A stretch of DNA of 64,000 bases from Pseudomonadota bacterium (GTDB lineage Bacteria; Pseudomonadota; Gammaproteobacteria; Steroidobacterales; Steroidobacteraceae), in contig JAJZDX010000002.1 of NCBI GenBank assembly GCA_021805865.1, positions 124,001 through 188,000 of the forward strand, in the 5' to 3' direction. Below are positions 1,123-7,707 of this stretch, piece after piece. Under the pieces are notes generated by a model, which was given only the letters and a program-made list of their open reading frames with translations, ran no database searches and was not told the origin of the DNA. Each line of letters starts with the position of its first letter. The first letter of the stretch is position 1. A program made the translations under genes and the position numbers.

Positions 1123-2652
1123 ATGAGACATCAAGCGGCGCGAGCGCTTGCGCTGACCATCATGGCTGTGTGCATCGGCCTGCCGGCGGCACAGGCGGCG
1201 GGGCGGCCGTCGCCTGCGGCGCGGATCGTGATCGACGGTGCCGCCCCGGAGCAGCCGTTCCCCCACTTCTGGGAGCAGATGTTCGGCTCGGGGCGTGCGA
1301 TTCTCGCGCTGCGAGCCGATTACCAGCGCGACATGCGGGAGGTCAAGCGCGTCACCGATTTCCGCCTGGTGCGCTTCCACGGCATCTTCGATCGGGGGGT
1401 CGGCGTTTTTCATCTCGATGCGCACGGCAGGCCGGTCTACAACTTCACCTACGTCGACGAGATCTACGACGCGCTGCTCAGGCAGGGCGTGCGGCCGTAC
1501 GTGGAGCTGAGCTTCATGCCGCCGCAGCTCGCCTTGCGCAAGGTGACCAACGGCTTCTGGTACAAGCCGAACATCGCGCCCCCCAAGAGCTGGACCCTCT
1601 GGGCGGGGCTGATCCGCCATTTTGCGCGGCATCTCATCGCGCGCTACGGCATCCGGGAAGTCTCTCACTGGTACTTCGAGGTCTGGAACGAGCCCAACAT
1701 CGGGTTCTGGGCGGGCAAGCCGAAGCAGGCGACCTATTTCCACCTGTACGAGGTGACGGCGCGGGCGCTGAAGAGCGTGAGCCCGCTGCTGCGGGTGGGG
1801 GGGCCCGCGACCGCGCAGGCGGCGTGGATCCCGGCTTTCATCCGCTTCTGCTCGGCCCACCACGTGCCCGTGGATTTCCTCTCGACTCATGTGTACGGTG
1901 ATGACACTGCGGAGAACGTTTTCCACCGCCATGAGAAGATCTCCCGCCGGAACATGGTGATCCGCGCGGTGGAAAAGGTCCACCGGGAGGTGCTGGAATC
2001 GCCCATGCCGCATCTGCCGGTCATCTTCAGCGAATTCAACGCCACCTACACCGGTGACGAGGTCGATGTCACCGACTCGCCCTACATCGGGCCGTGGCTC
2101 GCGAACACGATCCGCGCCACCGACGGTCTGGTGAAGCTGATGTCGTACTGGACATTCTCCGATGTCTTCGAGGAGCAGGGCGTGATCAGGACGCCGTTCC
2201 ACGGGGGGTTCGGACTGATCGCGGTCGGCGGCATTCCCAAGGCGTCGTTCAACGACTTCAAGCTCCTGCATAAGCTCGGCACGCAGCGGCTCGCGGAATC
2301 GTCGCACTCGGCGCTGGTGACACGGCGCAGGGACGGAATGCTGGCGATCGCCGTGTGGAATTACGCTCCGCCGGGACCCGGTGGAGCCACCAGGACCTAT
2401 TCGTTGGATTTTCGAAATGTCCCGGGCGCACGGCGCGCCTACGTCTGGCTCGTCGACCGCAATCACGGCTCGCCGCTCGCCACCTGGCAAGCCATGGGCT
2501 CGCCGAAATATCCGAGCTTCCAGCAGCGAAGGATCTTGCTGGCGGCTGCGCGGTTGCCACCACCCCGGATCGAGGCGCTGAAGGGGGCCTCGCCGCACCT
2601 GAGGCTGCGCTTGCGTCCGCATGCACTGGCACTCGTCGAGCTCGCGCGCTGA
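1123..2652 (+). CDS. Secreted glycoside hydrolase family 39 (beta-xylosidase-like)
   Basis: A 509-residue protein with a Sec signal peptide (about residues 1-26, ending AAQAA). It is followed by a GH39 (beta/alpha)8 barrel and a C-terminal beta-sandwich. The clan A signature is clear: the acid/base Glu is E190 in EVWNEPN and the nucleophile Glu is E304 in IFSEFNAT. Early motifs RFHGIFD and YVELSFMP also fit GH39. The family includes beta-xylosidases and alpha-L-iduronidases, and beta-xylosidase or a related exo-glycosidase is the likelier activity here. A good ribosome site (GGAGG about 10 bp upstream) supports this start. No transporter or regulator lies next to it, so it looks like a stand-alone periplasmic or secreted enzyme. 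Confidence 0.88.
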   Translation: MRHQAARALALTIMAVCIGLPAAQAAGRPSPAARIVIDGAAPEQPFPHFWEQMFGSGRAILALRADYQRDMREVKRVTDFRLVRFHGIFDRGVGVFHLDAHGRPVYNFTYVDEIYDALLRQGVRPYVELSFMPPQLALRKVTNGFWYKPNIAPPKSWTLWAGLIRHFARHLIARYGIREVSHWYFEVWNEPNIGFWAGKPKQATYFHLYEVTARALKSVSPLLRVGGPATAQAAWIPAFIRFCSAHHVPVDFLSTHVYGDDTAENVFHRHEKISRRNMVIRAVEKVHREVLESPMPHLPVIFSEFNATYTGDEVDVTDSPYIGPWLANTIRATDGLVKLMSYWTFSDVFEEQGVIRTPFHGGFGLIAVGGIPKASFNDFKLLHKLGTQRLAESSHSALVTRRRDGMLAIAVWNYAPPGPGGATRTYSLDFRNVPGARRAYVWLVDRNHGSPLATWQAMGSPKYPSFQQRRILLAAARLPPPRIEALKGASPHLRLRLRPHALALVELAR

Positions 2653-2884: not shown

Positions 2885-3613
2885 ATGCCGGAATCCGCCT
2901 CACTTCGCGCCGCCGCACTGGTCCTCTTCTGCCGCCGCCCGCTGCCCGGCTCGGGAAAGCGCCGCCTGGCCCGTGACCTCGGGGAGGCGAACTCGCTCGC
3001 TGTCGCCCGCGCGTTGCTCGAGTGCGCGCTCGAGGATGCGGCCGCCTGGTCCGGCCGGCTGGTCATCTCGCCGGCCCACGGCGAGGATGCCGCGTGGGCA
3101 CAAGGGCTGCTGCCGCGGCTCAAATGGGTGATATCCCAGCCGAAGGGCAATCTGGGTCACCGGATCAACGCCGTTGACGCCGCCGTGCGCCGTCGACGCT
3201 GCAGGCGCGTGCTCTTTGTCGGAAGCGACGCACCTTGCATGCAGCCCGGCGATCTCGAGGCGGCCGCCGCCACTTTGGATCATGCCGATGTCGTCTTGAT
3301 TCCCGCCGCTGACGGTGGAGTCACCCTCATGGGCTCTCGCGTGCGGTGGCCGCGGCTCTCGAGCCTGCCGTGGAGCGAGTCGGCGCTCGGCTGCGCGCTC
3401 GAGCGCTGTTGCCAGGCTTCGGGCCTGACCGTCGCGCGGCTGTCGGCCTCCTTTGACATCGACCAGGTCGCGGATTTCAGGCTGGCGTTCGAGGCGCTGG
3501 CGCGTGATCCGCGCCCGGCGAGACAACGCTTGAACGAGCTGCTTACCGCCTTGACCTGTCCGCCGCCGGCAATCGCATCCCCGTCCGCCAGCCCTGCCGC
3601 GGGTGAGGCATGA
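2885..3613 (+). CDS. TIGR04282-type glycosyltransferase (rSAM-associated transferase 1)
   Basis: A 242-residue GT-A-like nucleotidyl/glycosyl transferase of the DUF2064 / CofC-like family. Visible hallmarks are LVLFCRRPLPGSGKRRLA near the N-terminus (nucleotide loop), VGSDAPCM with D115 as the metal-binding acid, the conserved ADGGVTLMG, and the late FDIDQVADF. TIGR04282 members are repeatedly found beside a radical SAM protein and TIGR04283 transferases in arsenosugar-like loci, and that is the arrangement here. It is the first gene of a run with 4-11 bp overlaps, which implies translational coupling. The start at 2885 matches the family; the open frame extends upstream without homology. Confidence 0.8.
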   Translation: MPESASLRAAALVLFCRRPLPGSGKRRLARDLGEANSLAVARALLECALEDAAAWSGRLVISPAHGEDAAWAQGLLPRLKWVISQPKGNLGHRINAVDAAVRRRRCRRVLFVGSDAPCMQPGDLEAAAATLDHADVVLIPAADGGVTLMGSRVRWPRLSSLPWSESALGCALERCCQASGLTVARLSASFDIDQVADFRLAFEALARDPRPARQRLNELLTALTCPPPAIASPSASPAAGEA

Positions 3614-5073
3614 ACGCCGTGCAGGAGCGGGCGCAGGGGCCGGAACCGGGCGGGGTCGCCTCCGAGTACCGCCGCCTGGTGTTCCCGCAGGATTACCGCA
3701 ATCCAGACGGCCGGGGCCTCTACAATCTGGTGGTGATCGGGGCCGGGCCCGCGGGCCTGGTGATTGCCATCGCCGCGGCTTCTCTCGGCGCCCGGGTGGC
3801 CCTCCTCGAGCGCCATGCCATGGGCGGGGACTGTCTGAACGCGGGCTGCGTTCCCTCCAAGACACTGTTGGCCGCCGCCGCCGCGGGACTGCCGTTCGAG
3901 GCGGCCATGCAGCGGGTGCGTGCCGTTCGCACCCGGATCGCTCATCACGACTCCGTCGAGCGCTATTGCCGGGCGGGTGTCGAAGTCTTTCTCGGCGAGG
4001 GACGGTTCGAGTCGCCGCACCTCATCCGGGTCGGCGACATCGCGCTCCATACCCGCAAGGCCGTGATCGCGACCGGCGCGCGGCCGATGCTGCCCGCGAT
4101 CCCCGGGCTCGCCGAGCCGGGCGTGCTGACCAATGAGACGGTGTTCGAGCTGCGTGTGCAGCCGCGGCAGCTCGCCATTCTCGGCGCCGGCGCCGCAGGC
4201 TGCGAGCTGGCCCAGGCGTTCGCGCGCCTCGGCACCCGCGTCGAGCTCATCGAAGCGGCCACCCAGGTGCTGCCGCTGGAGGCGGCGGAGGCCGCAGGAC
4301 TCATCGCGAGCGCGCTGCGGCGCGAAGGGGTGATGCTGTACCTGGGCAGCGCCGCGCAGTCCGCCTCGGTGACCCCGAAGGGCAAGGTGCTCACACTCGG
4401 GGACGGGCGCCGGGTCGTGGCCGACGAGGTGCTGGTGGCCGCCGGACGGCGGCGCAATGTGGAGGGGTTGGATCTCGAGAAGGCGGGCGTGAGGCTCGAT
4501 GCCCGAGGCGCGATCGGGGTCGATGCGCGCCTGCGCACATCGCACCCGGATGTCTATGCGGCGGGAGATGTCTGCTCCGCATATCAGTTCACCCACGCGG
4601 CCGATGCACAGGCGCGCATCGTCGTCCGCAACGCGTTGTTTCGGGGCCGCGCGCGGGCGGACAGGCTCATCGTGCCTCGCTGTGTCTACACCAAGCCGGA
4701 GCTTGCGCAGATCGGCGCGACGGCCCCTGAGCTGCAGGCGGCCGGCCGCCGCTTCGAGCGTTACCGGCTCGAGTGGAGCGAGCTGGACCGTAGTGTGATG
4801 GAGGATGCCGAAGAGGGCTTTGTCGAGGTGTTGGCGGACGCCGGCGGGCGCGTCCTCGGCGCCACGCTGGTCGGCCGGGATGCGGGCGAGCAGATCGCGC
4901 CCCTGGCGTTGCTGATGATCCGACCCGGAGGGCTCGGTGCGCTCGGCTCGCTGGTGCTGCCCTATCCGACCCGCTCGGAATACCTGCGCCGGCTCGCCGA
5001 CCAGCACGCCCGCCGTCGTCTGACGCCGCGGGTCGCCGGAGCGCTCCGTGCGTGGTTGCGTCATGCGCGCTGA
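3610..5073 (+). CDS. Mercuric-reductase-like FAD pyridine nucleotide-disulfide oxidoreductase
   Basis: A 487-residue class I flavoprotein disulfide reductase. It has an N-terminal FAD motif VVIGAGPAGLV, the redox-active pair C75 and C80 in GDCLNAGCVPSK, an NAD(P)H Rossmann motif ILGAGAAGCELAQAF, the second FAD motif YAAGDVC, and a dimerisation domain. The usual catalytic HPT.E motif of lipoamide or glutathione reductases is replaced by YPTRSE, so the acid-base His is missing, as in mercuric-reductase-like proteins. There is no N-terminal HMA domain and no C-terminal Cys pair, so mercury reduction is unlikely. About 35 residues precede the FAD motif. It overlaps both neighbours, so it presumably serves the same pathway. 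Confidence 0.85.
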   Translation: MNAVQERAQGPEPGGVASEYRRLVFPQDYRNPDGRGLYNLVVIGAGPAGLVIAIAAASLGARVALLERHAMGGDCLNAGCVPSKTLLAAAAAGLPFEAAMQRVRAVRTRIAHHDSVERYCRAGVEVFLGEGRFESPHLIRVGDIALHTRKAVIATGARPMLPAIPGLAEPGVLTNETVFELRVQPRQLAILGAGAAGCELAQAFARLGTRVELIEAATQVLPLEAAEAAGLIASALRREGVMLYLGSAAQSASVTPKGKVLTLGDGRRVVADEVLVAAGRRRNVEGLDLEKAGVRLDARGAIGVDARLRTSHPDVYAAGDVCSAYQFTHAADAQARIVVRNALFRGRARADRLIVPRCVYTKPELAQIGATAPELQAAGRRFERYRLEWSELDRSVMEDAEEGFVEVLADAGGRVLGATLVGRDAGEQIAPLALLMIRPGGLGALGSLVLPYPTRSEYLRRLADQHARRRLTPRVAGALRAWLRHAR

Positions 5074-5788
5074 AGCACCAGAGACGCCGCGGCTGACGGT
5101 CATCGTGCCCACGCTGCGCGATGACGCCTCGCTTACGCAGCTGCTGGCCGCACTGGGCCGGCTGGATACCTCGCCGGAAGAGGTGATCGTCGCCGATGGC
5201 GCGGCGGGCGAGGACACCGCGGCGCTGTGCAGTCGGCACGGGGTCCGCTGGTTGCCTTCGCCGTCGGGACGGGGCTTGCAGCTGAGCGGCGGGGTCTTGG
5301 CCGCGCGGTCGGCCTCGGTCCCGGGCGCCGCGGCCGAGGTGCTGTGGTTCCTGCATGCGGACAGCCGGCCGCATTGCGGCGCAGCGGACGCGATTCGGGC
5401 GGCCGTCCGGCAAGGGGCCGCCGGAGGCTACTTCCGCTTCCGCTTCGGCGGTCCGGCGGGGGCGGTGAAGTCCCTCCTCGAGCGCAGCATCGCCCTGCGC
5501 TGCCGTTTCGGTATGGTATACGGTGATCAGGGCATTTTCGCGACCCGGGAGGCCTATGAGGCGGGCCCGGGATTCGCTGCGCAGCCGCTGTTCGAGGAGG
5601 TGCCGTTGGTACACTACCTCAAGCGCACGGGCCGGTTCGTCGCGCTCGATCTGCCCATCACGGTCGATCCGCGCCGCTGGGAGCGCGACGGATACCTGCG
5701 CCGCACCCTGTACAACCGCGTGCTCGCGCTGGGACACCTCGTGGGCGTGCCTGCGGTTCGGCTGTCACACTGGTATGGCGCACGATGA
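5063..5788 (+). CDS. TIGR04283-type glycosyltransferase family 2 (rSAM-associated transferase 2)
   Basis: A 241-residue GT2 enzyme. LTVIVPTLRDD opens the GT-A fold, EVIVADGAAGEDT follows, FLHADSRP carries the metal-binding D100, and the late region has GDQGIF and FEEVPLVHYLKR, all typical of TIGR04283. Members of this family accompany ArsS-type radical SAM enzymes and TIGR04282 transferases, and are thought to glycosylate the ribosyl product. The ATG at 5063 overlaps the previous stop by 11 bp; a GTG at 5048 is a possible alternative start. Its own end overlaps the radical SAM gene by 4 bp (ATGA). Acceptor and sugar donor cannot be read from sequence. Confidence 0.82.
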   Translation: MRAEAPETPRLTVIVPTLRDDASLTQLLAALGRLDTSPEEVIVADGAAGEDTAALCSRHGVRWLPSPSGRGLQLSGGVLAARSASVPGAAAEVLWFLHADSRPHCGAADAIRAAVRQGAAGGYFRFRFGGPAGAVKSLLERSIALRCRFGMVYGDQGIFATREAYEAGPGFAAQPLFEEVPLVHYLKRTGRFVALDLPITVDPRRWERDGYLRRTLYNRVLALGHLVGVPAVRLSHWYGAR

Positions 5789-6747
5789 ATGACACTCTTG
5801 CGCAGACCGCGCCGCAGTCCCTCGTGCTCGAAGAGCCGGCCGAGGACGACTGGCTGTTCACCCCGCTCGGGGATCCGCGCGGCTACATCGAGCCGCATAC
5901 GCTCTCGGAGCTCTGGTTCCATACCGGCACGGCGTGCAATCTCGCCTGTCCGTTCTGCCTGGAGGGCTCCAAGCCCGGCGACCGGCGCATCGGGCGCGTC
6001 ACGTTCGCCGAGGTGCGTCCCTTTCTCGAGGAGGCCGCCGCGCTCGGGGTGAGGCAACTGTCCTTCACCGGCGGCGAGCCGTTCATCGTCAAGGATCTGG
6101 TGCGGATCCTGGACCATGCGCTCGCCATAGCGCCCGTCCTGGTGTTGACCAACGGGGTGGATGCGCTGCCGCGCCGTCTGCCGAGGCTGCGCGCGCTGCG
6201 GGCGAGACCGCATCCGCTCGCCTTCCGCGTCAGCCTGGATTATGCCGATGCCGGCCGGCACGATGCGGGCCGCGGCGCGGGCAGCTTCACCGCGGCCTGC
6301 CGCACGCTGCAGCTTTTGCATGCGGAGGGATATCACGTCTCGATCGCCCGGCAGATGGAGGCGGGCGAGGATCGCGCCCGGACGGAGGGGGTCTACCGCC
6401 GGCTGTTGAGCGCTCTTCAGCTGCCGGCGGATCTCAACATCGTGGCCTTCCCGGACTTCGGCACGCCGGGCTCGCATCCCGCGGTGCCGCACGTGACGCG
6501 CTCCTGCATGACGACTTATCAGACCGAGGCGACGCGGCGCGAGTTCATGTGCGCCTACAGCAAGATGGTCGTGAAGATCGATGGCCGCATGCGGGTGTAT
6601 GCCTGTACGCTGGTCGATGACGATGCGGCCTACGATCAGGGAGGTACGCTCGCCGAGAGCCTGGGCAGGCGGGTGATGCTGCGCCATCACCGCTGCTTCG
6701 CGTGCTTCAAGTTCGGCGCCTCGTGCAGCGAGGCGAAAGAGCATTAG
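5785..6747 (+). CDS. Radical SAM protein with Cys-rich C-terminus
   Basis: A 320-residue radical SAM enzyme. The [4Fe-4S] cluster ligands are C51, C55 and C58 in ACNLACPFC, and the SAM-binding GGE motif is FTGGEPF. The C-terminal third has further cysteines (FMCAYSK, VYACTL, HRCFACFKFGASC), suggesting an auxiliary cluster or SPASM-like cap. It differs from classical ArsS, which carries a CN..C.HCHVDAGP cluster motif and a DUF3641 tail, so the reaction is not assignable by family. Context (two rSAM-associated glycosyltransferases upstream, a methylthioadenosine phosphorylase facing it) suggests a 5'-deoxyadenosyl transfer or similar chemistry. It is the last gene of the overlapping run. Confidence 0.8.
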   Translation: MNDTLAQTAPQSLVLEEPAEDDWLFTPLGDPRGYIEPHTLSELWFHTGTACNLACPFCLEGSKPGDRRIGRVTFAEVRPFLEEAAALGVRQLSFTGGEPFIVKDLVRILDHALAIAPVLVLTNGVDALPRRLPRLRALRARPHPLAFRVSLDYADAGRHDAGRGAGSFTAACRTLQLLHAEGYHVSIARQMEAGEDRARTEGVYRRLLSALQLPADLNIVAFPDFGTPGSHPAVPHVTRSCMTTYQTEATRREFMCAYSKMVVKIDGRMRVYACTLVDDDAAYDQGGTLAESLGRRVMLRHHRCFACFKFGASCSEAKEH

Positions 6748-6861
6748 CAATTCACTGCCGCCTTCACCCCGCTCCCGGCGATTTGCCGACGCGCCCCGGA
6801 AGAGTCCGCTCGAGGGGGCGCTTTGACCGTCGCCTGCCCTCGTGTGGGCGAGATCTTCGCG

Positions 6862-7707
6862 TCAGCTCGCCAGAAAATCCAGGATCGCCTTCTGCCCGGC
6901 CGTCATCTGTTCCCTCGGCGTGATCACCGCCTGCTCGAGCGAGTGCCGGCAAGGGCGCGACTCGTCCTCGGCGTAGTCCGCCACGGCGCGCGCGATGAGC
7001 CGCTGCACCCGCGCCAGGCTGTCGCGGAACTGGCTCATCACCTGATCGACCGAGACGTGTTGGGAGGGGTCGTCGAGCCAGCAGTCGTAATCGGTCGCCA
7101 CCGCGATGGTGCAGTAGCCGAGCTGCGCCTCGAGGGCGAGGAAGGCCTCCGGCACATTGGTCATGCCGACCAGGTCGGCGCCGGCGCTGCGCAGCCAGAG
7201 GCTCTCCGCCCGGGTGCCCAGGCGCGGGCCCTCGACGCAGGCATAGGTCTTGTCCAGGTGCAGAGCCTGGCCGAGGGATTGCGCCGTGCGCGCCAGGAGC
7301 GAGGCGGTCGCGGCACAGGTCGGATGAGCGGTCGATATGTGCGCGACCAGCCCCTTCCCGAAGAAGCTCGCCGCACGCAGTCCCTTGGTGAAGTCCAGGT
7401 ATTGCGAGGGCAGCGCCAGATCGCCGGGACGGATCTCCTCGCGCAGGCTTCCGACCGCGGAGACCCCGATGATGGTGCGTACGCCCGCGCTTTTCAGCGC
7501 CCAGATATTCGCCCGGAAGTTGATCTCGCTCGGCAGCAGATCATGACGCAGGCCGTGCCGGGCGAGGAAGGCGATCGGGCGGCCGCCGAGCCGTCCCAGC
7601 ATCACCGGTGAGGAGGGCGGGCCGAAGGGGCTGTCGACCTCGCGAGTTTCCGTGACCTCCAGACCGTCCATGCGATACAGGCCCGTGCCGCCGATTATGC
7701 CGATCAT
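6862..7707 (-). CDS. mtnP: S-methyl-5'-thioadenosine phosphorylase
   Basis: A 281-residue member of the PNP/MTAP family II. The N-terminus IGIIGGTGLYRMDGLE, the phosphate-binding ARHG motif, GVSAVGSLREEI, EGPRLGTRAES, GMTNVPEAFLA and ATDYDCW are all present. The TDYDCW motif fits adenine-type substrates (MTAP) better than methylthioinosine phosphorylases, which differ there. The enzyme cleaves methylthioadenosine, and often 5'-deoxyadenosine, into adenine and a 5-substituted ribose-1-phosphate. The start at 7707 puts the conserved IGIIGG next to Met1; an upstream extension to 7773 is not family-like. It faces the radical SAM cluster, so it may recycle, or supply a ribosyl step to, that pathway besides doing ordinary methionine salvage. 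Confidence 0.88.
   Translation of the reverse strand: MIGIIGGTGLYRMDGLEVTETREVDSPFGPPSSPVMLGRLGGRPIAFLARHGLRHDLLPSEINFRANIWALKSAGVRTIIGVSAVGSLREEIRPGDLALPSQYLDFTKGLRAASFFGKGLVAHISTAHPTCAATASLLARTAQSLGQALHLDKTYACVEGPRLGTRAESLWLRSAGADLVGMTNVPEAFLALEAQLGYCTIAVATDYDCWLDDPSQHVSVDQVMSQFRDSLARVQRLIARAVADYAEDESRPCRHSLEQAVITPREQMTAGQKAILDFLAS

Follow-up and report, generated by a model that had tools for sequence, protein, structure and literature searches.

A compact cluster of five genes lies within a 64,000-nucleotide stretch of DNA from a gammaproteobacterium of the Steroidobacteraceae (assembly GCA_021805865.1, contig JAJZDX010000002.1, positions 124,001 to 188,000), the whole of which is termed the window. 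Four overlapping genes on the plus strand encode a protein of family TIGR04282 (T82), a flavin adenine dinucleotide (FAD)-dependent disulfide reductase, a protein of family TIGR04283 (T83) and a radical S-adenosylmethionine (SAM) protein, and they face a gene for S-methyl-5'-thioadenosine phosphorylase (MTAP) on the minus strand. The radical SAM protein represents a family that is conserved among bacteria and named rSAM2 here, whose gene partners largely coincide with those of ArsS, which has been reported as an arsenic-adenosylating enzyme (PMC12159101, excerpt). The cluster may thus be an arsenosugar-type biosynthetic cassette in which the non-orthologous rSAM2 replaces ArsS, a reading that, judged from sequence, has an even chance of being correct.

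Organization of the gene cluster

The plus-strand genes overlap by 4 bases (T82 and the FAD reductase), 26 bases (the FAD reductase and T83) and 4 bases (T83 and the radical SAM gene), and by this appearance they are read as an operon (Table 1). An earlier note on this DNA had described the same five genes in the same arrangement and named their families; the positions of the open reading frames (ORFs) agree with it and the families stand as named, with T82 and T83 slightly under their cut-offs. T82 matches TIGR04282 over positions 1-188 of 189 (118 bits, E 3e-34, cut-off 134) and T83 matches TIGR04283 over positions 1-221 of 221 (166 bits, E 1e-48, cut-off 182), while the MTAP passes TIGR01694 (281 bits, cut-off 274.85) and the radical SAM protein passes PF04055. 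The nearest model of the FAD protein is NF004991 (535 bits, cut-off 620), and its translation carries a C-x4-C redox pair. Identity with the mercuric reductase MerA was considered and rejected, since the protein reaches only 309 bits against TIGR02053 (cut-off 454) and its translation lacks the C-terminal vicinal cysteine pair that we take to be the hallmark of MerA.

Table 1. Features of the five-gene cluster, in window coordinates
Feature	Position	Strand	Basis
T82, TIGR04282/DUF2064, predicted nucleotidylyltransferase with a CofC/3-phosphoglycerate guanylyltransferase fold	2885..3613	+	profile match, AlphaFold2, Foldseek
FAD-dependent disulfide oxidoreductase, NF004991-like, related to MerA and lipoamide dehydrogenase	3610..5073	+	profile match
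C75-LNAG-C80, expected redox-active disulfide of the FAD reductase	3832..3849	+	translation; role assigned from the protein family
T83, TIGR04283 family-2 glycosyltransferase	5048..5788	+	profile match; Glycos_transf_2 below cut-off
rSAM2, radical SAM enzyme, proposed ArsS substitute	5785..6747	+	profiles, alignments, tree, structure model
CX3CX2C radical SAM cluster motif, C51/C55/C58	5935..5958	+	invariant in alignments of 14, 60 and 80 sequences
C-terminal CxxC-x6-C tail (C304, C307, C314), in register with ArsS C304/C307/C315	6694..6732	+	alignment
S-methyl-5'-thioadenosine phosphorylase (MTAP), adenine type	6862..7707	-	TIGR01694 above cut-off
TDYDCW motif, residues 205-210 of MTAP	7078..7095	-	alignment

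The name of its family would make T82 a glycosyltransferase, an assignment that was rejected, since a fold search with its predicted structure leads to nucleotidylyltransferases instead. The AlphaFold2 model of T82 (predicted local distance difference test, pLDDT, 94) retrieved 3cgx first, whose annotation as a nucleotide-diphospho-sugar transferase is putative and whose activity is unproven, followed by 3-phosphoglycerate guanylyltransferase, CofC (Rv2983), IspD, KdsB and GlmU. Among the 50 Foldseek matches listed, every protein of established activity is a nucleotidylyltransferase, and Rv0371c, MM2497 and 3cgx bear putative names or none. The predicted fold is accordingly shared with CofC and 3-phosphoglycerate guanylyltransferase (7p97 and 6bwg among the matches), although T82 does not reach the cut-off of the CofC model TIGR03552 (33 bits, cut-off 105).

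The rSAM2 family and its relation to ArsS

At E <= 1e-20, rSAM2 was found in 15 of 60 genomes (the window's own and 59 relatives), and a 16th match at 39% identity (G010) was excluded as Rv1681-like. A scan of genome contigs yielded at least 298 confirmed relatives, the best 80 of which were kept as loci, so that this sample leans to the window's own kind; nine of the 80 coincide with loci of genomes examined before, and many are cut by contig ends. The record titles include Marinobacterium, Motiliproteus, Neptuniibacter, Endozoicomonas, Methylohalomonas, Kiritimatiellae, Lentisphaerae, Hydrogenedentota, Omnitrophota and Rhodospirillales; the spread over phyla rests on these titles, which for metagenome-assembled genomes are possibly wrong. 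The cluster recurs, with members gained and lost, in other families and, by record titles, in other phyla, and is thus more than a chance arrangement. The earlier note had regarded a neighbourhood confined to this strain as fatal to its idea, and a search across genomes found the cassette conserved well beyond it.

Nine cysteines (51, 55, 58, 241, 256, 274, 304, 307 and 314) are invariant in 80 aligned rSAM2 proteins, namely that of the window and those of 79 loci. The nearest NCBIfam model is the Rv1681 family NF049973, which gives the best match to the rSAM2 core (residues 41-218) at 114 bits, yet far under its cut-off of 380. No function for that family turned up in the literature listing, and rSAM2 was therefore not found to cluster with an enzyme of known unrelated function, the other outcome that the earlier note had named as adverse. 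Two Rv1681-like radical SAM proteins (L038:8781-9782 on the plus strand and L087:9347-10375 on the minus strand), scoring 97 and 102 bits against NF049973, are 36-39% identical to rSAM2, and no cassette partner among those queried was seen in the stretches read around them. A tree of 44 rows places these two as the sister of rSAM2 (support 84/85), the deep branches being long. The AlphaFold2 model of rSAM2 (pLDDT 91) matched SkfB, BlsE, MoaA, SuiB, viperin and DesII in Foldseek. A description of the family was not found in the open-licence PMC literature, and rSAM2 is apparently an undescribed radical SAM family.

Filing rSAM2 as ArsS was rejected on the basis of a score of 38.5 bits against the ArsS model TIGR04167 (cut-off 300) and of its separate clade. 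In the same tree, the 22 rows of rSAM2 (94/78) and the 14 rows of ArsS (100/100) each fall on one side of a branch, the other rows being long-branched, and an ArsS above the cut-off was not found in the window genome. The two enzymes are nevertheless alike in several respects. They are nearly equal in length (320 residues in rSAM2, 321 in ArsS), and profile alignment with hhalign gave a probability of 97.3% in local mode, covering the shared core, and of 98.5% in global mode, covering the whole length. The earlier note had stated that the protein lacks both the cluster motif and the tail of ArsS, which proved incorrect for the motif, since both enzymes carry CX3CX2C (CNLACPFC in the window rSAM2, CNQQCLHC in ArsS). 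The claim about the tail is doubtful as well, since five C-terminal cysteines align one to one between rSAM2 and ArsS (256/250, 274/265, 304/304, 307/307 and 314/315), although the C-terminal part taken alone shows no significant similarity (hhalign 19.6%). The differences include TGGEPF of rSAM2 as against TGGAPE of ArsS, and in the tail HRCxxCFxxGxSCSE as against HCYGCTAGxGSSCGG. By sequence, the one ArsS queried has no close relative in the PDB (best E 4e-5).

A cassette shared with ArsS clusters

The surroundings of 80 rSAM2 loci and of 54 ArsS loci, the latter hand-picked from the 182 ArsS genomes of a class sample, were compared by running the same tblastn queries over a uniform span of 7 kb. 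The same partners were retrieved in both sets, with counts for rSAM2 and ArsS loci, respectively, of 51 and 36 for T83, 48 and 40 for T82, 34 and 16 for the FAD reductase, 23 and 17 for a VTT-family membrane protein, 22 and 20 for an ArsM-like protein and 19 and 0 for MTAP. When only loci with 5 kb on both sides were considered (39 of rSAM2, 52 of ArsS), the counts became 26 and 38 for T82, 25 and 34 for T83, 18 and 16 for the FAD reductase, 13 and 17 for VTT, 11 and 20 for ArsM-like and 12 and 0 for MTAP. The earlier note had named the two transferase families as companions of ArsS, and both recur in the ArsS loci. This comparison of neighbourhoods shows that rSAM2 sits in a cassette equivalent to that of ArsS. 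In the two samples MTAP is linked to rSAM2 only; a single ArsS exception occurs in a congener of the window organism (L249, discussed below). The T82/T83 pair of one ArsS cluster (L088) passes TIGR04282 and TIGR04283 with 209 and 270 bits, and a T83 homologue from an rSAM2 cluster (L034) passes TIGR04283 with 197 bits. ArsM-like genes stand next to rSAM2 in loci whose titles name Gammaproteobacteria, Kiritimatiellae and Lentisphaerae; the two such proteins scanned (L034 and L035) fall short of the cut-offs of the listed ArsM models.

The two radical SAM enzymes were never found together in the samples. ArsS (E <= 1e-40) is present in 182 of the 369 genomes of the class sample and rSAM2 (window protein, E <= 1e-30) in seven, the window's own included, with G260 left out as Rv1681-like (L087). 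None of the seven carries ArsS, as against 182 of the other 362 (Fisher p 0.008, uncorrected for kinship); the excluded G260 also lacks it. ArsS was likewise absent from all 50 rSAM2 genomes to which the loci had led; three of these (G475, G429 and G447) are identical with genomes already counted (G199, G052 and G055). The set of 60 genomes, with 15 carrying rSAM2, four ArsS and none both, points the same way without being significant alone (p 0.31).

A congener (G004, locus L249) harbors a canonical ArsS-T83-T82 cassette beside an MTAP gene and a homologue of the window gene g7725, which is the setting in which rSAM2 is found in the window. Common descent of the two slots is likely, though not proven, because the MTAP and the g7725 homologue are only 47% and 42% identical to those of the window. 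Another locus of the genus (L248) contains T83-T82 beside an adenine-type MTAP, with no radical SAM gene in the stretch.

Some further ORF families, named by eye, occur around the two enzymes. Two families of small ferredoxin-like ORFs occur in 13 and in 11-12 of the 80 rSAM2 loci (examples L116:2180-2593, and L120:3498-3818 and L121:2079-2396) and in none of the ArsS loci examined; they are possibly electron donors or plain local synteny. A sterol-desaturase-type family was seen in 11 of the 54 ArsS loci and one of the 80 rSAM2 loci (example L098:7608-8546).

Linkage and base type of the phosphorylase

Among the 19 rSAM2 loci with MTAP, the gene lies at most 2 kb downstream of rSAM2 and in 16 cases within 0.7 kb. 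It is convergent with rSAM2 in eight loci (L103-L110, of the window's kind, L110 being titled Deltaproteobacteria) and codirectional in eight others from Motiliproteus, Neptuniibacter, Endozoicomonas and one further gammaproteobacterium; the order rSAM2, ArsM-like, MTAP, all codirectional, occurs in three Kiritimatiellae loci, and L084 provides a further codirectional case. At an early stage the linkage had been regarded as mere local synteny, because MTAP was absent from the first loci of other families; for the family as a whole this explanation was discarded once MTAP was seen beside rSAM2 in other lineages.

The TIGR01694 family (E <= 1e-30) is represented in 75 of 80 genome handles and in a single copy in 74 of them; one Kiritimatiellae genome (G467) holds two MTAPs, one of which lies inside the cluster, and the window MTAP is the only match of its genome at this threshold. 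MTAP was found in 35 of 40 rSAM2 handles (38 genomes), with at least 16 of the 35 located at the cluster, and in 40 of 40 ArsS genomes, in none of them at the ArsS loci read.

The sequence motifs of these proteins follow the same division, where we take TD[YF]D[CAS]W to denote the adenine type and N-x-[AG]-A-G the 6-oxopurine type. The former is present in 22 of 24 rSAM2-adjacent copies (two by eye), and the remaining two copies are broken or truncated; two pairs of loci among them come from the same genome (L029 and L109, L030 and L107). Ten non-adjacent copies from rSAM2 genomes comprise nine with N-x-[AG]-A-G and one with TDYDCW, and all ten copies from ArsS genomes carry N-x-A-A-G, while the MTAP beside the ArsS cassette of L249 has the adenine-type TDFDCW. 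The comparison therefore shows a correlation of rSAM2 with both the position and the predicted base type of MTAP. A methylthioinosine route has been described in Pseudomonas (PMC6302742, excerpt).

In the window's genus, 13 genomes without rSAM2 were searched and eight contain a window-like MTAP. Two of the loci (L242 and L244) retain T82 between a glutathione S-transferase gene and MTAP, in genomes without rSAM2 and stretches without T83 or the FAD gene, an arrangement that is probably a decayed cassette. Of the others, L245-L247 show MTAP with no cassette, L243 is a short contig, and L248 and L249 have T82/T83 of the other type.

Proposed pathway and alternative explanations

Under the arsenosugar-type reading, rSAM2 would cleave SAM and attach its 5'-deoxyadenosyl group to a trivalent arsenical bound by thiols, which an ArsM-like enzyme, if present, would have methylated; the product would be a 5'-deoxy-5'-arsenic-adenosine. 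The adenine-type MTAP would then phosphorolyse this product to adenine and 5-deoxy-5-arsenic-ribose-1-phosphate, a sugar-1-phosphate that would be a natural substrate for T82, which would convert it to a nucleoside diphosphate (NDP) sugar. T83 might transfer the sugar from the NDP-sugar onto an acceptor molecule, for example glycerol phosphate or a lipid, with the FAD reductase holding dithiols and arsenic in the reduced state, and the VTT-family protein of other clusters could serve in lipid handling or export. Every chemical step, and arsenic itself as the element, is what we infer from these gene families. The interpretation in the earlier note is partly supported. Comparison upholds an ArsS-like cassette built around another radical SAM enzyme, its conservation well beyond the strain and a recurring link to MTAP, and the role of T82 as a decorating transferase gives way to that of a predicted nucleotidylyltransferase.

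A nucleosidase step after the entry of arsenic into the ribosyl moiety has been proposed for an algal arsenosugar lipid (PMC10456119, excerpt); that proposal names a nucleosidase rather than a phosphorylase, together with a synthase, as activities without genes (same excerpt). In the excerpts drawn from the open-licence PMC literature, the steps after adenosylation, in which adenine is lost and the aglycone is attached, appear at most as proposed activities without genes, and the cluster, if correctly read, would offer a candidate for each of them. In a bolder extension, a little less likely than even, rSAM2 would be a second, independently recruited arsenic-adenosylating enzyme found across several phyla, and the cassette would encode every step between SAM and a glycosylated arsenosugar, from adenosylation through MTAP and T82 to T83; T82 and T83 of canonical ArsS clusters would thereby receive their roles too. 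If the arsenosugar-type reading is right, the key radical enzyme has been replaced by a non-orthologous one, two radical SAM families that may have met one chemical need could be compared, and possible arsenosugar makers outside the ArsS set would become predictable from genomes, including Marinobacterium, Motiliproteus, some Kiritimatiellae and soil Gammaproteobacteria.

Several observations weigh against this reading. The core sequence of rSAM2 is nearer to the Rv1681 family (114 bits) than to ArsS (38 bits), and the weak match of the C-terminal parts means that the tail is not taken as proof of homology. Generic SPASM/twitch domains have a similar layout of tail cysteines, so that this layout speaks for a cluster or thiol site used in a similar way and not for shared ancestry. 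T82 and T83 of rSAM2 clusters, though belonging to the families found in ArsS clusters, have diverged from them along with the radical SAM enzyme (118 and 166 bits in the window, 209 and 270 in L088); in some relatives T82 is the only partner of rSAM2 (L030 and, on cut contigs, L027 and L039), and several rSAM2 loci are without any partner. The check for arsM that the earlier note had suggested turned out negative, no ArsM-like gene being found at E <= 1e-25 in the window genome (98.75% complete; best score 31 bits), and ArsM-like genes occur in just 30 of 70 rSAM2 handles (29 of 67 distinct genomes). With neither an ArsM-like nor an ArsS match, the arsenical in the window organism would have to be inorganic, imported or methylated by an unrecognised enzyme. 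The starts of the window ORFs show no obvious arsenic gene, although no search by family was made. Finally, MTAP was not found at E <= 1e-30 in five of the 40 rSAM2 handles (four of Marinobacterium, and G049), hence it cannot be essential, and three loci of the window's genus (L245, L246 and L247) keep an MTAP-gshA-ABC arrangement free of the cassette, so that the position of MTAP in the window may be inherited.

The last two points, together with the single MTAP copy of the window genome, would also suit an ordinary methionine-salvage enzyme that stands beside the cassette incidentally. This explanation is considered somewhat unlikely, given that Motiliproteus, Neptuniibacter, Endozoicomonas and Kiritimatiellae have MTAP by rSAM2 in different arrangements and that all readable adjacent copies carry the adenine-type motif.

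Another explanation is that the radical generated by rSAM2 drives a different reaction, such as hydrogen abstraction or carbon-carbon bonding on a sugar, lipid or peptide, with MTAP clearing 5'-deoxyadenosine or 5'-methylthioadenosine (MTA), and T82, T83 and the FAD reductase decorating a non-arsenical product. The Foldseek neighbours listed above perform other chemistries, enzymes of MTA type may serve in 5'-deoxyadenosine salvage (PMC6302742, excerpt), and the missing ArsM of the window genome would be expected; the ArsM-like genes at most 7 kb from rSAM2 in 22 of 80 loci, the companion set equal to that of ArsS and the failure of ArsS and rSAM2 to occur together speak against it, as does the lack of any recurrent peptide gene noticed among the ORF families (ORFs of >=100 or >=80 residues only). 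We regard it as unlikely.

Less probable still is an aminocarboxypropyl transfer by rSAM2 of the kind proposed for ArsL, the radical SAM enzyme of arsinothricin. Like rSAM2, ArsL is a radical SAM enzyme with CX3CX2C, and it acts on As(III); unlike it, ArsL has 428 residues, is encoded within arsQML and has been proposed to transfer an aminocarboxypropyl group (PMC8552651, excerpt). Such chemistry would account for an adenine-type MTAP beside the enzyme, but would leave the T82/T83 sugar pair, common to ArsS clusters, without a role. No ArsL model appears in the top 25 of the 40 families that rSAM2 matched, and a weaker match below these is possible.

The earlier note had left arsenic, selenium and carbon side by side as the element attached, and of these selenium is now disfavoured, because the window genome lacks SelD, as do 16 of 25 rSAM2 handles (15 of 24 genomes), the other nine having it. 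A selenium or purely carbon adenosyl conjugate draws its appeal from the name of the ArsS model, according to which some of its proteins are selenoproteins, from the entry of TIGR04167 in a selenoprotein table (PMC13188914, excerpt) and from the fact that a sequence cannot reveal the element. In view of the SelD result and of the ArsM-like genes that adjoin rSAM2 in several titled lineages, a product of this kind seems improbable compared with the arsenical proposed above.

Neighbouring features

Upstream of the cassette, the window encodes a GH39-family glycoside hydrolase (1123-2652, plus strand) with a signal-like N-terminus as judged by eye, and a GH39 gene is also present in four other loci (L024, L025, L026 and L246). 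Antisense to the cassette runs an open frame of 645 residues (3280-5217, minus strand), which is likely a by-product of high guanine-plus-cytosine content rather than a gene.

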